Shown: piece by piece, positions 5,175 to 63,483 of the stretch
Numbering within the stretch: the first letter of the stretch is position 1
Layout of the letters: every line of letters begins with the position of its first letter
Assembly (NCBI GenBank): GCA_030430755.1
Contig: JAUIKO010000002.1
Location: 124,001 to 188,000, forward strand
Length of the DNA: 64,000 bases
Direction of reading: 5' to 3'
Source of the DNA: Fimbriimonadia bacterium
GTDB lineage: Bacteria > Armatimonadota > Fimbriimonadia > Fimbriimonadales > Fimbriimonadaceae
Position numbers and translations under genes: made by a program
The notes under the pieces: model-generated
What the model saw: the letters and a program-made list of their open reading frames with translations, nothing else
The model's database searches: none
What the model was told of the DNA's origin: nothing

Positions 5175-5500
5175 AGATTAATTCCCTAATAGTTATATCA
5201 TCGGCATAAATAAAATGAAAACCAAGTACAGGTTACCGCAGGAAACATCCTTTTCTACAATAATTTGGAGTATTTCATGTATTATAAATAGCTTTATCCT
5301 TTTGTTGAGAGCAACAGATAATATATGCCCACGCTTGTTAATGGTTCATATCGTAATCACCTTGGTTTTAGGCATTTAGAACTACGTTCAATTTCTTTAA
5401 ACGATAAACTTTAACAGTTTTTCTTAAACAACTGATATTTATTTGAAATATAACATCTTTCAACAGTGACTTTGCTAATTTCTATATGCTGAAATATCCA
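5175..5500. other. Intergenic region upstream of nuoD and of the peptide gene
   Basis: This gap holds the nuoD upstream region (minus) and the leader of the tiny peptide gene (plus). I see no clear -35/-10 pair. A 29-codon frame at 5325-5414 has no ribosome binding site and no match to the peptide pair, so it is not called. A small GTTG/CAAC hairpin lies at about 5303-5314. Confidence 0.4.
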
Positions 5501-5516
5501 TGTAGAGACATCTACA
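5501..5516 (+). promoter_or_regulatory. Hairpin abutting the Shine-Dalgarno of peptide gene 1
   Basis: TGTAGA, loop GACA, TCTACA: a perfect 6-bp stem. Its last base is the first A of the AAGGAG ribosome binding site (5516-5521). The second peptide gene also has a hairpin just before its ribosome binding site, which suggests a conserved 5' leader architecture. Confidence 0.5.
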
Positions 5517-5527
5517 AGGAGTAAATA

Positions 5528-5617
5528 ATGAACAACAGAATCTTTAACAGAACAGACACCAGAGAAACAGAAATCAGAATAGCTAATGAAGTTATATATG
5601 ATATATCTACAGGATAA
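5528..5617 (+). CDS. 29-residue peptide, paralogue of the one at 62678
   Basis: A tiny gene, ATG to TAA, with a strong ribosome binding site AAGGAG ending 6 bases before the ATG. The product begins MNNRIFNRTD and ends IANEVIYDISTG. It aligns without gaps to the peptide at 62678-62767: 18 of 29 residues are identical, concentrated in the N-terminal NRIF.RTD and the C-terminal I.IANEVIYD block, ending in Gly. Where the residues agree, several codons differ only in the third base (Asp, Ala, Asn, Val, Ile, Gly), as expected for a translated product under selection. The peptide is hydrophilic, has no Cys and has no signal or membrane segment. It stands alone on the plus strand between two minus-strand genes. 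I do not recognise the family; a signalling peptide, a modified-peptide precursor or a small regulator are all possible. Confidence 0.75.
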   Translation: MNNRIFNRTDTRETEIRIANEVIYDISTG

Positions 5618-5627
5618 TACGATTATA

Positions 5628-5652
5628 GTGGTGTATTTTCTAATATCACCAC
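5628..5652 (+). terminator. Short hairpin after peptide gene 1
   Basis: GTGGTG (5628-5633) pairs with CACCAC (5647-5652), 10 bases after the peptide stop codon. The stem is only 6 bp and the following sequence is AT-rich without a clean T run, so it is a weak terminator candidate. Confidence 0.35.
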
Positions 5653-5757
5653 ATATTCTTAATATTATCTAGCTAGCTTAATCTCAAGACTATAAAAAAC
5701 AAAGAGAACAACTTATAAATTTAACAGGTTTTTTAAAATCCCACTAAGATACAACAT

Positions 5758-6654: not shown

Positions 6655-6791
6655 ATGTAGCCACCAAAAAAATAGAACCTAATTAACTTATTCCATAATT
6701 AGACAACTATGAATTCATTCCTATTCACAAATAGATACTAGTACATCTATTGGGAAAAATATTTTTTCTACTCTACTAATACAGATTTATG

Positions 6792-6935
6792 TTCTGGCAT
6801 AGACTAACCTTCTGGAATAGACTAATCTTCTGGCACAGACTAATCTTCTGGTATAGACTAACCTTCTGGAATAGATTAACCTTCTGGAATAGACTAATCT
6901 TCTGGTATAGACGAACCTTCCGGAATAGATAAACT
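6792..6935. repeat. 18-bp tandem repeat, 8 units
   Basis: Eight units of TTCTGGAATAGACTAACC with one to three substitutions each run head to tail. Because 18 is divisible by 3, the array stays open on both strands: a WNRLTF hexapeptide repeat on the plus strand (ATG 6789 to TAA 6932, 47 residues) and LFQKVS on the minus strand. Neither frame has a ribosome binding site and the changes are not biased to third positions, so it is probably a non-coding minisatellite just upstream of the AtpZ-like gene. Confidence 0.85.
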
Positions 6936-7001
6936 TCTATGAAGATAAAAAAACAGTCCGTGATTATATTTATCTTTAATGATTCTGAGTATTCTAAAAG
7001 C

Positions 7002-40140: not shown

Positions 40141-40581
40141 AAACTCCTTACTCTCCCATACTCAGTCCCATTTTTCATCTATTATAATAAATTCTCTTTA
40201 TAATAAATTATGTTGATTATTATTGCAGTTATCTTATCATATCTTATATTAATATTATCTTATTACACTCCTTATTCACGAATAATCTTGATATTTTCAC
40301 CCTCAAAAAGATGTAATGCCAAGATAGACTCAAAATTACGAAAAATTAACCGAACAGAAATAATTTTGAAGTTTTCTCTTACCGAATTAATATATTTCAA
40401 CAAATTTTCTTGTCGGATTTTTATATCGGAATAAAAATATTCCTTCTAAGATATAAGATGTAGCCTTGTATATCTTATATCTTTTCAGCATATTGAAAAA
40501 CTTCCAACTAAATAATCATACTAGTGCACTTATAAGTATTAGATAAACTTTTAATTCTCAGTCACTAAAAAAACATATATT
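40141..40581. other. AT-rich gap before the repeat array
   Basis: It holds the upstream region of the minus-strand gene ending at 40140. A 74-codon frame at 40210-40434 lacks a ribosome binding site and has an arbitrary composition, so I do not call it. I see no clear hairpin or promoter. The 82-bp repeats begin at 40582. Confidence 0.4.
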
Positions 40582-41010
40582 ATGAAAGGATGATATATAA
40601 CCCGTATATCTCAGTATCTAAAAGTATATATAGCAAACTCAAAATTCATAACCAGTTAGACTTATGAAGGGATGCTATATAACCCTGATATCTCAATATC
40701 TAAAAGTATATATAGCAAACTCTATGTTCATAACCAGTTAGACTTATGAAAGGATGCTATATAACCCGTATATCTCAATATCAAAAGGTATATATAACAA
40801 ACTCAAAATTCATAGCCAACTAGAATTATGAAAGGATGCTATGTAACCCTTATATCTCAATATCTAAAAGTATATATAACAAACTCAAAATTCATAGCCA
40901 ACTAGAATTATGAAAGGATGCTATATAACCCGTATATCTCAATATCTAAAAGTATATATAGCAAACTCAAAATTCATAGCCAACTAGAATTATGAAAGGA
41001 TGCTATATAC
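40582..41010. repeat. 82-bp tandem repeat, 5 copies plus 19 bp
   Basis: Copies start at 40582, 40664, 40746, 40828 and 40910, each exactly 82 bp, with a partial sixth at 40992-41010 ending just before the glgA stop (41028). Each copy contains an inverted repeat, TGCTATATA with TATATAGCA or a one-base variant, about 27 bases apart. Copies 3-5 are the most alike. Copies 2-5 each contain a 25-codon frame starting ATGAAAGGATGC (ATGAAGGGATGC in copy 2); copy 1 has TGA at codon 4. There is no ribosome binding site and the changes are not synonymous, so the frames are probably incidental. The array sits in the 3' region of glgA. Confidence 0.95.
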
Positions 41011-51193: not shown

Positions 51194-53293
51194 ATGAAAG
51201 AAAATAGAAACCAAAAAATTTTTCACATAGCTGGAGCAGTTGTTTTAATGGGATTAGTAGGGTGTGGTGGAACCAATACAGTATCTACTACATCCATATC
51301 GAATAATAAAAATGGTACATATAAGAACTTTATAACCAGAATGGATAATACTCCCTCTGATATTACTGCTGAAACAATCTACAACAAAGTATTTAACTAT
51401 CAAAAAATAACTCCAGAAGATGTAAAAGCCTTAGAAAAAAACGGTTCAAATGAAAACGGCTGGGTTGTAAATACATCACCAAGTGGTACTGTAATCATAA
51501 AAATTGTAATGAGTACACCTTCTGTACTTATTACAGCAGAAGAAATTAACGCAGATGAAACGAGTGATGTTGATACAAAAAAACAATCTTTCTCATACTA
51601 CTGGAACGAAGACAACACAATGTTAATACCAGAAGGATACAAAGGTAGTAGTGCTGTTCAAGTACAGAACGTAGAAAATCCTACACTAGAAAAAGAACCT
51701 ACAGTAGAAAATGATAGCATAAGTTCTAATAGTACTGCTACTAATCCAACAATAAATCCTACACTAGAAAAAGAACCTACAGTAGATCATAATGGCATAA
51801 GTTCTAATGTAGTAAAACAAATGGATGGAGACGAGGAACAACTAAGTAGCCCAACAACAGAACTGCCAGTATATACAAAACATAAAGATGACATGAATTC
51901 TGACGATCCAGAATATATTAGTACAGAAGATCACAGGAGTCTTGATAAAGAACAGTACGCTTCGCCAGAAAACGATTATAAAGATAATCGCCAATACATG
52001 TACGAAGAAAATAATATTTCAGAAGGAGATCGGCAACATACCCCATCAGAAAATGATATAAATGAAGATGTTTACTACACTACGAATTATTCTCCAGACA
52101 GTTATTCAGAAGAGTATCCTCAGCATGACTCCGTAAGAAATTCACCTCCTTCTTCACCATATAATTCTACTAATTTTAAAGAAGATGTAGAAAACCTCAC
52201 TAAAGTTATGCTGCTTGCAGGTAATCGAGATAATCCAAATATAGGTGATATGCCAAATCCATTACATCTTGCACAAGGATTATTAGGGGCATTACACAAT
52301 AATGCTTATCCTGAATTATTAAAAGATCTTCAGCCAGTATTCAATAAAAATGAAGAAAGCGATGCAGAAACTGATGCAGAAAAAGAAGCTGATGTAATAG
52401 CAAGATTAAAGAATATCGATTTCACTCAAATGGAAGAATATCAAGACCTAACAAGAGCCTTTGAAGAAGCTAAAAATAAAAACAAAGAAGACTCAAACGA
52501 ATCTGGAGAAACTCATGAAAACTCTCTAGATGATCTACGAAAAGCTTCTGTTATTCTTCTTGACGGATTGGCTAAAGCTAGAGAAATGATGTCAAGAGAA
52601 CACCCAGTCGAAAGCCCTAACGATGATTCTATTGGAAATGATATGCCAGGAGACTTGCCAACTGGAGATATGCCAACTGGAGATATGACAGGTGACATGC
52701 CAACGGATATGCCAACTGGAGACATGACAGAAGATATGCCAACTGGAGACATGACAACTGATATGCCAGAAGACCTGCCAGAAGATATGCCAACTGGAGA
52801 CATGCCAGAAGACATGCCAGGAGATATGCCAACTGGAGACATGACAACTGATATGCCAGGAGATATGCCAACTGGAGATATGACAGGAGATATGACAACT
52901 GATATGCCAGGAGATATGTCAACTGGAGACATGACTGGTGACATGCCAACGGGAGACATGACAGAAGATATGCCAACTGGAGACATGACAGAAGATATGC
53001 CAACTGGAGACATGACAACTGATATGCCAGAAGACCTGCCAGAAGATATGCCAACTGGTGACATGCCAACTGGAGACATGGAAACTGGAGATATGCCAGG
53101 AGACATGACAGAAGATATGACAACTGGAGACATGACTGGTGACATGCCAGGAGATATGCCAACGGGAGACATGCCAGAAGATATGCCAGGAGATATGCCA
53201 ACTGGTGACATGCCAACTGGAGACATGGAAACTGGAGATATGCCAGGAGATATGACAGAAGATATGACAACTGGAGATATGACAGAAGCGTAA
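51194..53293 (+). CDS. Lipoprotein with Asp/Met pentapeptide repeat domain
   Basis: 699 residues from the ATG at 51194, chosen because GGAG lies 5 bases before it and the lipoprotein signal (IFHIAGAVVLMGLVGCGG) begins here; the frame itself opens at 51092. The lipidated Cys is about residue 24. A conserved-looking domain of about 130 residues is followed by an acidic, Ser/Asn/Glu-rich region containing NPTLEKEPTV twice, then a helical stretch, then about 215 residues made only of pentads such as GDMPT, GDMTE, EDMPT. The C-terminal domain is about one-fifth Asp and one-fifth Met with no Lys or Cys. It is likely surface-exposed or periplasmic. Met/Asp-rich arrays could bind metal ions, or simply form an extended stalk; no family is recognised. 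Confidence 0.82.
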   Translation: MKENRNQKIFHIAGAVVLMGLVGCGGTNTVSTTSISNNKNGTYKNFITRMDNTPSDITAETIYNKVFNYQKITPEDVKALEKNGSNENGWVVNTSPSGTVIIKIVMSTPSVLITAEEINADETSDVDTKKQSFSYYWNEDNTMLIPEGYKGSSAVQVQNVENPTLEKEPTVENDSISSNSTATNPTINPTLEKEPTVDHNGISSNVVKQMDGDEEQLSSPTTELPVYTKHKDDMNSDDPEYISTEDHRSLDKEQYASPENDYKDNRQYMYEENNISEGDRQHTPSENDINEDVYYTTNYSPDSYSEEYPQHDSVRNSPPSSPYNSTNFKEDVENLTKVMLLAGNRDNPNIGDMPNPLHLAQGLLGALHNNAYPELLKDLQPVFNKNEESDAETDAEKEADVIARLKNIDFTQMEEYQDLTRAFEEAKNKNKEDSNESGETHENSLDDLRKASVILLDGLAKAREMMSREHPVESPNDDSIGNDMPGDLPTGDMPTGDMTGDMPTDMPTGDMTEDMPTGDMTTDMPEDLPEDMPTGDMPEDMPGDMPTGDMTTDMPGDMPTGDMTGDMTTDMPGDMSTGDMTGDMPTGDMTEDMPTGDMTEDMPTGDMTTDMPEDLPEDMPTGDMPTGDMETGDMPGDMTEDMTTGDMTGDMPGDMPTGDMPEDMPGDMPTGDMPTGDMETGDMPGDMTEDMTTGDMTEA
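52640..53286 (+). repeat. 15-bp degenerate coding repeat, about 43 units
   Basis: Units of the form GATATGCCAACTGGA, with variants GACATGACAGAA and so on, run head to tail through the 3' third of the lipoprotein gene. Larger blocks recur (for example the segment around 52735-52810 is repeated around 52985-53060), so units have been copied in groups. All changes keep the reading frame. Confidence 0.9.
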
Positions 53294-61387: not shown

Positions 61388-62383
61388 TTAACTAAAATAG
61401 CTGAAACCTATGGATTTTCTCACTAATTCCATGGTTACATTTGCTTTTTCTCTAGCTTTTTGAGTACCAGAAAATAATATATCTTGTACATCTTTCTTCG
61501 AAAAAAGTTCTCTTTTTTCCCGAAATGGCGTCGTTAACTCCGTTAAAGTTTTAAGCAAAATTTTCTTGATAGTTACATCTCCAAGCCCACCTTTTCTATA
61601 CTGAGCTTTTAATTCCTCTACCTCTTCTTTATCTTGATGGAATGCATCTAAATATGAAAAAACAACATTCCCTTCAACTTTCCCCGGGTCTTGAACGTGA
61701 ATATGCTCAGGATCGGTATACATTTGAAATACTTTTCTCTTAATTTCTTCAGGCGAATCGGATAAATATATTGCATTCCCTAATGATTTGCTTGCTTTAG
61801 CTTTACCATCTATCCCGACTAATCTACCTGTTTTACTTAAAATTGCTTTACATTCTTTCAGACATTCAGTCTGATAAATCCTATTAAACCGTCGAACAAT
61901 TTCATTCGTTTGTTCGATCATAGGCACTTGATCCTCTCCTACAGGAACATATTCTGCCTGGAAAATAGTTATGTCTGCAGCTTGACTTATAGGATAGCAT
62001 AAAAACCCTGCAGGAATACCTTCATTAAAACCTTTCTGTTTAATTTCATTTTTAACAGTTGGATTACGTTCTAATCTCCCCAAATTCACTAGATTCATAT
62101 AATATATAGTCAATTCAGTTATTTCTGGAATTTGAGATTGAATAAAAATACTTGTTTTTTCAGGATCTATACCTACTGATAAATAATCCAGTGCTATATC
62201 GTAAACACTTTCAGTTATTTTTTGAGGATTTTCAAAGTTATCTGTAAGGGCTTGTACATCAGCAATCATTACATACTGCTCATAATCATTTTGCAACAAC
62301 ACCCTATTTTCCAAGGATCCTACATAATGACCTAAATGCAACCTACCACTTGGCCTATCACCTGTTAAAATAATACTCTTCAT
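61388..62383 (-). CDS. trpS: Tryptophanyl-tRNA synthetase
   Basis: Charges tRNA-Trp. Class I signatures: GDRPSGRLHLGHYVG, carrying the HIGH-type HLGH, and KASKSLGNAIYL, carrying KMSKS (as KASKS). Also GEDQVPMIEQTNEIVRRFN. At 331 residues it is a typical bacterial enzyme. Upstream lies the 500-bp gap with peptide gene 2. Confidence 0.96.
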   Translation of the reverse strand: MKSIILTGDRPSGRLHLGHYVGSLENRVLLQNDYEQYVMIADVQALTDNFENPQKITESVYDIALDYLSVGIDPEKTSIFIQSQIPEITELTIYYMNLVNLGRLERNPTVKNEIKQKGFNEGIPAGFLCYPISQAADITIFQAEYVPVGEDQVPMIEQTNEIVRRFNRIYQTECLKECKAILSKTGRLVGIDGKAKASKSLGNAIYLSDSPEEIKRKVFQMYTDPEHIHVQDPGKVEGNVVFSYLDAFHQDKEEVEELKAQYRKGGLGDVTIKKILLKTLTELTTPFREKRELFSKKDVQDILFSGTQKAREKANVTMELVRKSIGFSYFS

Positions 62384-62630: not shown

Positions 62631-62656
62631 TTATGCAGGTATTTACACTTGCATAA
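62631..62656 (+). promoter_or_regulatory. Hairpin before the Shine-Dalgarno of peptide gene 2
   Basis: TTATGCAGGT pairs with ACTTGCATAA (10 bp with one G-T wobble) around the loop ATTTAC. It ends 9 bases before the GAGG ribosome binding site (62666-62669). Peptide gene 1 has a hairpin in the corresponding place. Confidence 0.55.
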
Positions 62657-62677
62657 TTATTTAGAGAGGTGAATATG

Positions 62678-62767
62678 ATGAAAAACAGAATCTTTGAAAG
62701 GACAGATGTTTCCGACTTGACAATCACAATAGCAAACGAAGTCATTTATGACAACGGAAGTGGTTAG
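62678..62767 (+). CDS. 29-residue peptide, paralogue of the one at 5528
   Basis: Two ATGs occur in a row (62675, 62678). The second gives exactly 29 residues, the length of the paralogue, and sits 8 bases after GAGG. The product begins MKNRIFERTD and ends IANEVIYDNGSG. It shares 18 of 29 positions with the peptide at 5528-5617, including NRIF, RTD, and IANEVIYD. Of the shared residues, eight (Arg8, Asp10, Ala, Asn, Val, Ile, Asp25, Gly29) use different synonymous codons. The variable middle (VSDLTIT against TREETEIR-like residues) is polar in both. It stands alone on the plus strand between trpS and the MotE-like gene, both minus. A very long hairpin follows. I do not know the family. Confidence 0.78.
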   Translation: MKNRIFERTDVSDLTITIANEVIYDNGSG

Positions 62768-62775
62768 AATAGGAG

Positions 62776-62845
62776 AAAGCTAGTTTTTATCTAAGAAAAA
62801 TCGATATTAGCAAAGTATATTTATTCCTAGATAAAAACTAGCTTT
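62776..62845 (+). terminator. 18-bp perfect stem after peptide gene 2
   Basis: AAAGCTAGTTTTTATCTA (62776-62793) pairs with its exact reverse complement at 62828-62845. The 34-base loop is unusually large for a terminator. It begins 8 bases after the peptide stop codon. Confidence 0.7.
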
Positions 62846-62895
62846 TCGACACTAAACATTTTAACTTAAATACATTTTTTTCAGTGAATGAAACC

Positions 62896-63483
62896 TCATT
62901 CAAACTTCAGTGCTCCAGAACCCACAGATTGAATTAACCTGCTTATTCTAGCGGATCTTTCAGCTTCCATAATTTTTAATAATTCAGCAGTAACACCAGA
63001 ATCCATATAAAAAAGCACAAACGCTAGCCTTCCATCATCCCATTTTTGAATAATTTCATTTAAATCCTTGGGAGGGATTTCGTTCCATATCTTTGCTAGT
63101 TTTTTTGCTCCTCTAACAGGATCAATATCTTCATTTATATCCTTTTTAGCTTGAACATTCTTTTTATCTTCGATAGGCTTCTCAATTTTTTCCTTTTCTT
63201 GAGTATTATTTTTTTCTACATCTTTCTGATCACTTTTGGGAACATCACTCTCATCTACTTGTTTTTCATCTTTTAATTTATCTTTTTCTGGGATATCTTT
63301 GTTATTTTTTTCTTTTGGTAATTCTGTAAAAACAGGAACCAACCCAGAATTAAGCAATCCTTCCAAAGGAGTTTCCTTCACAAAAGATACATCTATAAAT
63401 CCATTTTTACCTGCAACTAAAACACCAAAAAAAGTAAAAGCAACAAGTATTATGAATATTAATAATCCTTTAACAAACCTCAT
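62896..63483 (-). CDS. Membrane protein with MotE/MgtE-N-like domain
   Basis: 195 residues. One N-terminal membrane helix (GLLIFIILVAFTFFGVLVAG), then a linker of about 60 residues made mainly of Lys, Glu and Asp, then a helical domain of about 75 residues: GAKKLAKIWNEIPPKDLNEI, WDDGRLAFVLFYMDSGVTAE, LLKIMEAERSARISRLI. This layout and the 'ILxxMexxrAaxI' rhythm resemble MotE, a flagellar stator chaperone with an MgtE-N-like domain, or the related flagellar FliG-contacting proteins. The neighbour is a lytic transglycosylase, as often seen in flagellar operons. The match is moderate. Confidence 0.6.
   Translation of the reverse strand: MRFVKGLLIFIILVAFTFFGVLVAGKNGFIDVSFVKETPLEGLLNSGLVPVFTELPKEKNNKDIPEKDKLKDEKQVDESDVPKSDQKDVEKNNTQEKEKIEKPIEDKKNVQAKKDINEDIDPVRGAKKLAKIWNEIPPKDLNEIIQKWDDGRLAFVLFYMDSGVTAELLKIMEAERSARISRLIQSVGSGALKFE

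Follow-up and report, generated by a model that had tools for sequence, protein, structure and literature searches.

A 29-residue peptide gene family with 13 copies in one Fimbriimonadia genome and a putative link to MFS transporters

We detected two members of one family of genes for a 29-residue peptide in the window, i.e., the whole 64,000-nucleotide stretch of DNA analysed here, and a profile search of the genome assembly to which it belongs (1.48 Mb, 19 contigs) recovered 13 copies, each at E 2e-16 or better. The two window copies match each other at the peptide level (E about 5e-6), which together with the 13-member profile bears out the proposal of an earlier note on this DNA that they form one family. 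The same count rules out the view of the two loci as nothing but an old dispersed pair, several of the copies being tandem or part of units with genes for transporters of the major facilitator type (MFS). Our overall account, to which we give a probability of about 0.4, is that the family encodes a soluble peptide which is linked to MFS transporters and would act in trans.

The family appears to be lineage-specific and, as far as searched, limited to one species. No member was found by profile search in 40 relatives, a congener included, and two matches in other genera in the same search (E 0.07-0.09) were taken as chance. Viral contigs and phage and plasmid records yielded nothing credible (two phage matches at E 6 were disregarded), and neither did searches of Pfam, NCBIfam, PHROGs, PADLOC and the PDB (three PDB matches, E 0.4-0.5, disregarded). 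The peptide was also absent from the flanks of trpS matches in a further contig collection, in which those flanks alone were covered. Within the genome, 12 of the 13 copies run towards a gene on the other strand and the thirteenth is a tandem copy, so that the expected placement of the family in convergent gaps holds in this one genome. Since contigs C5, C7 and C12 break within arrays of the MFS family, further peptide copies may be absent from the assembly.

The second window locus has the layout that had been described for it, namely a 5' leader hairpin, a GAGG, the peptide gene and a long stem, and it lies alone on the plus strand between two minus-strand genes, trpS (61388-62383) and a MotE-like gene (62896-63483). 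The leader hairpin (62631..62656, plus strand) has 10 pairs and a 6-nt loop in a structure scan, and the surrounding segment 62625-62700 folds with a z of -3.0 relative to shuffles. It is followed on the same strand by the Shine-Dalgarno GAGG read from the sequence (62666-62669) and by the 29-codon gene MKNRIFERTDVSDLTITIANEVIYDNGSG (62678..62767), assigned by profile and alignment, in which ATGs occur at 62675 (the alternative start) and 62678 and the stop at 62765-62767. The AT-rich stem-loop between the peptide gene and the convergent MotE-like gene (62775..62846, without assigned strand; 19 pairs, 34-nt loop) is much more stable than shuffles on the plus strand (z -6.4) and on the minus strand (z -7.0). 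The trpS gene is, after that of the congener, closest to trpS of Rickettsiales and Legionella in a collection of named genomes, which suggests its acquisition by horizontal transfer.

The stem sequence of this second copy is found solely at its own site in the genome and bears no relation to that of the 3' hairpin at the first window locus. Comparable AT-rich stems, with 18-22 pairs and loops of 6-8 nt, stand where convergent genes end at three further sites in the window (53472, 58222, 60435), and the stem at 62775-62846 therefore looks like an ordinary terminator, probably a bidirectional one. The suggestion that its 34-base loop is unusual and has a role beyond termination thus loses its footing, AT-rich stems of 18-23 pairs being common at convergent ends in the window. 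A 3' stem was likewise rejected as a feature of the family because it varies from locus to locus and stems of this kind also follow other genes. We regard the second window copy as an outlying, diverged member with a leader of its own and an ordinary terminator.

The first window copy carries the repeat element shared by the family (5368..5605, plus strand), which comprises about 160 nt of upstream and leader sequence and most of the peptide gene; its identity to copies elsewhere in the genome is 73-79%. On the same strand follow a 5' hairpin of the family type, TGTAGA-GACA-TCTACA (5501..5516), with AAGGAG directly after it, the peptide gene MNNRIFNRTDTRETEIRIANEVIYDISTG (5528..5617; profile and alignment) and a 3' hairpin, GTGGTG...CACCAC, detected by a fold scan at about 5628..5652. 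The order of hairpin, gene and hairpin is thus common to both window loci, as had been claimed, but the likeness goes no further: the leader of the first folds no better than shuffled sequence (z -0.7), and the 3' hairpins differ as described. Similarly, the flanks of the two window copies are indeed unlike each other, but those of the first are not unlike everything else, since it shares its ~160 nt with 11 other copies and also has, on the minus strand, a 50-nt piece of MFS leader (5696..5745) that matches the conserved form of this leader at 98% identity and has no MFS gene attached. This orphan leader suggests that the first copy, which like the second is an outlying member of the family, probably derives from a peptide-MFS unit whose transporter gene was lost.

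The MFS genes themselves have a strongly conserved leader of ~80 nt (e.g., L096 10247-10296, minus strand, and 5696-5745 in the window). Its reverse complement contains AACAACTTATA, a sequence that also occurs upstream of many peptide genes and is possibly a shared regulator site. Repeats of other kinds occur elsewhere in the window: an 18-bp tandem repeat of about 8 copies (6781-6938) just upstream of a frame at 6939, a tandem array of an 82-bp unit (40579-41009; 5.3 copies, 91% alike) in the gap between two minus-strand genes, and long degenerate repeats (52656-53288) with units such as GATATGCCAACTGGAGACATG.

The short frame is very probably a real small-protein gene, as judged from its pattern of substitution and its fixed length. 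For codons 2-25, the stated frame gives a pN/pS of 0.29 and the two remaining sense frames give 1.13 and 1.04, and the observed in-frame value lies below all of 200 column shuffles (mean 0.73, lowest 0.34). One antisense frame reaches 0.37, as expected from its mirroring the sense third positions. Of 24 codons, 20 vary at the third position and 9 at the second, and the stop falls at codon 30 in all 13 copies despite wide divergence of codons 27-29. Constraint persists in copies that lack an MFS neighbour, including the most diverged ones: the two transporter-less window copies (L003 and L005) differ at 9.3 of 14.5 synonymous sites and at 13.7 of 57.5 nonsynonymous ones. A canonical Shine-Dalgarno sequence of the AAGGAG type lies 6-7 nt ahead of the ATG in 12 copies (6-8 nt when similar sites are counted as well), and a single copy (L010) has ATT in place of ATG. 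This purifying selection specific to one frame, together with the fixed length, leads us to take the peptide as the product of a real gene, which standard gene callers would probably pass over. An open frame arisen by chance in AT-rich intergenic DNA would agree with the shortness of the frame and with its want of a database homologue, but it is contradicted by 13 conserved copies, the selection and the constant length, and is scarcely credible. The peptide is charged and has neither a hydrophobic stretch nor a recognisable motif; a type I toxin of a toxin-antitoxin system was considered and rejected on account of the charge, the missing hydrophobic stretch and the lack of a PADLOC match.

The ~160 nt ahead of the ATG are common to 12 copies, the second window copy being without this leader. 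In these 12, TGTAGA-loop-TCTACA, or a one-base variant, abuts AAGGAG; the hairpin partly covers the Shine-Dalgarno sequence, with which its 5' flank is able to pair in most copies as well. A hairpin just upstream of the Shine-Dalgarno sequence was found in every copy, in agreement with the earlier note, which had further reasoned that the structure matters because the 5' hairpins differ in sequence. This reasoning does not survive the larger set, in which 12 of 13 hairpins are nearly identical and that of the second window copy (62631-62656), without sequence similarity to them in the alignment, is the exception. Covariation, proposed at the same time as a check, was not seen: none of 10 pairs in 11 sequences changed on both sides, a comparison of little power with four pairs invariant, and 92% of the cells over the 11 rows are paired. 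The leader has no match in Rfam. Synonymous variation is lower in codons 2-10 (pS 0.28) than in codons 11-25 (0.63), which fits constraint at the RNA level near the start. Since no both-sided change is present, a conserved RNA structure in the leader is possible, short of demonstrated. The leader also contains an 8-codon frame, GTG...TGA, with the consensus VTLLISVR (L004 1439-1465; window 5466-5492), in which TGA is invariant in 12/12 and GTG present in 11, and second positions vary least (2/8); it lacks a Shine-Dalgarno sequence and is too short to judge.

The conservation of ~160 nt upstream in 12 copies and the low pS of the first codons would also be accounted for if the upstream region and first codons formed a regulatory RNA that also yields the peptide, much as SgrS also encodes SgrT, and that acts in trans or as an antisense RNA at the 3' end of the MFS gene. 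The short distance between the stops of peptide and MFS genes (7-18 nt) adds to this, because convergent transcripts would overlap unless they ended at once. Nevertheless, we consider such a dual-function RNA unlikely, as the hairpin has no both-sided changes and no Rfam match, the conserved upstream block may in part be a mere promoter, and duplex scores with MFS start regions are not clearly favoured. In the scores for pairing of the peptide RNA in trans, these start regions rank 3-18 of 61, with no clear standout.

Eight copies lie tail-to-tail with members of one lineage-specific MFS transporter family (Pfam MFS_1, E 8e-10), the two stops being 7-18 nt apart in seven cases and 83 nt in one. 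A ninth copy (L010) belongs to a tandem 226-nt duplicate at C5:381/607, of which it is the first copy, with ATT for ATG, the other being intact. The four copies that do not face an MFS gene are the two window copies, C5:13246 and C7:198488, the last of which sits at the end of an MFS array. The transporter family is expanded in the source genome, and MFS proteins of the congener reach merely 23-26% identity to it. We tentatively propose that the peptide is a putative partner or regulator of MFS transporters, by analogy with known small proteins. In this scheme each peptide gene would have its own promoter, the leader hairpin would tune translation of the peptide, the peptide would be a small cytosolic product that acts in trans on MFS transporters, as their partner or regulator, and its gene would have spread together with theirs. 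The constraint on transporter-less copies suggests that the peptide works away from any neighbouring MFS gene and fits action in trans.

A serious rival is that the tight linkage between peptide and MFS genes could be passive co-duplication. The peptide gene would then be a real, non-essential passenger unrelated to transport, copied with the MFS units and kept alike by gene conversion. The spacing of the arrays at about 1.6 kb, the tandem duplicate whose first copy is without its ATG, and the incongruence of the trees of peptide bodies and MFS proteins, consistent with conversion, all suit a passenger. We nonetheless find it rather doubtful, given that in-frame constraint extends to the copies lacking an MFS gene and that the position of the stop is fixed in 13/13. 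For the peptide bodies, an AU test against the MFS tree rejects grouping the three clade-A peptides together (p 0.004), whereas residue 25 follows the neighbour, with S beside MFS clade A (3/3) and D or H beside clade B (5/5). A body off the MFS tree and a residue 25 on it suggest that bodies have been exchanged among loci while the tails stayed put, eight loci being few. These data could be read as a paired system, in which each transporter would have a private, tail-to-tail regulator peptide with specificity in its variable last residues, the body spreading by gene conversion and the tail staying with the transporter. This is quite improbable in our judgement, and the correlation of residue 25 with clade is confounded by physical linkage, as at most a few tens of nt separate the tail from the MFS stop.

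The scattered sites of a conserved block of ~240 nt, always in gene gaps, might also point to a small mobile repeat (MITE- or REP-like) with an incidental open frame. We consider this very unlikely, because neither terminal repeats nor target duplications were noticed by eye, the synonymous pattern is restricted to one frame and most copies travel inside a peptide-MFS unit. In an empty-site comparison, the congener shows no synteny at the trpS-MotE site.

A gene for an ATP/ADP translocase of the TLC/NTT family (G000:C7:311225-312853) is also present in the congener and in 0/9 other relatives, and its limitation to these two among 11 genomes makes an energy-scavenging intracellular life likely; from this translocase, we take the bacterium to be a likely ATP-scavenging intracellular organism with a reduced genome. 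Gene loss is expected in such genomes, whereas here a transporter family and a 29-residue peptide have expanded together. If the peptide controls transporters, it would allow an intracellular bacterium to govern the flow of nutrients between itself and its host, an idea that should be easy to test thanks to the pairing of the two genes.

Considering known systems, the peptide has no hydrophobic stretch, unlike MgtS, which is membrane-embedded, and unlike AcrZ. It shares its size class and proposed role with MgtS, MntS and AcrZ, with no sequence match found to them. These three are small-protein regulators of transporters, and AcrZ is likewise membrane-embedded (PMC10710835). SgrT, a 43-aa peptide whose frame lies within the 5' part of SgrS, inhibits the glucose transporter PtsG (PMC10710835; PMC3901232). 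It resembles the present peptide in being short and soluble, with a transporter as the target (here a proposed one) and a conserved RNA context. Unlike SgrT, which acts on a PTS transporter, our peptide has as its putative target an MFS transporter, and it occurs in 13 copies, most of them adjoining such putative targets. As judged from the family libraries, homology to SgrT finds no backing, the peptide having no credible Pfam, NCBIfam or PDB match, and we regard the two as comparable in proposed mechanism and not homologous. Lineage-restricted families of small ORFs, including short orphan frames, are described in a global small-protein catalogue (PMC11364881). Like them, the peptide is a short orphan, but it occurs in multiple copies that have a leader in common and repeatedly adjoin a transporter gene.
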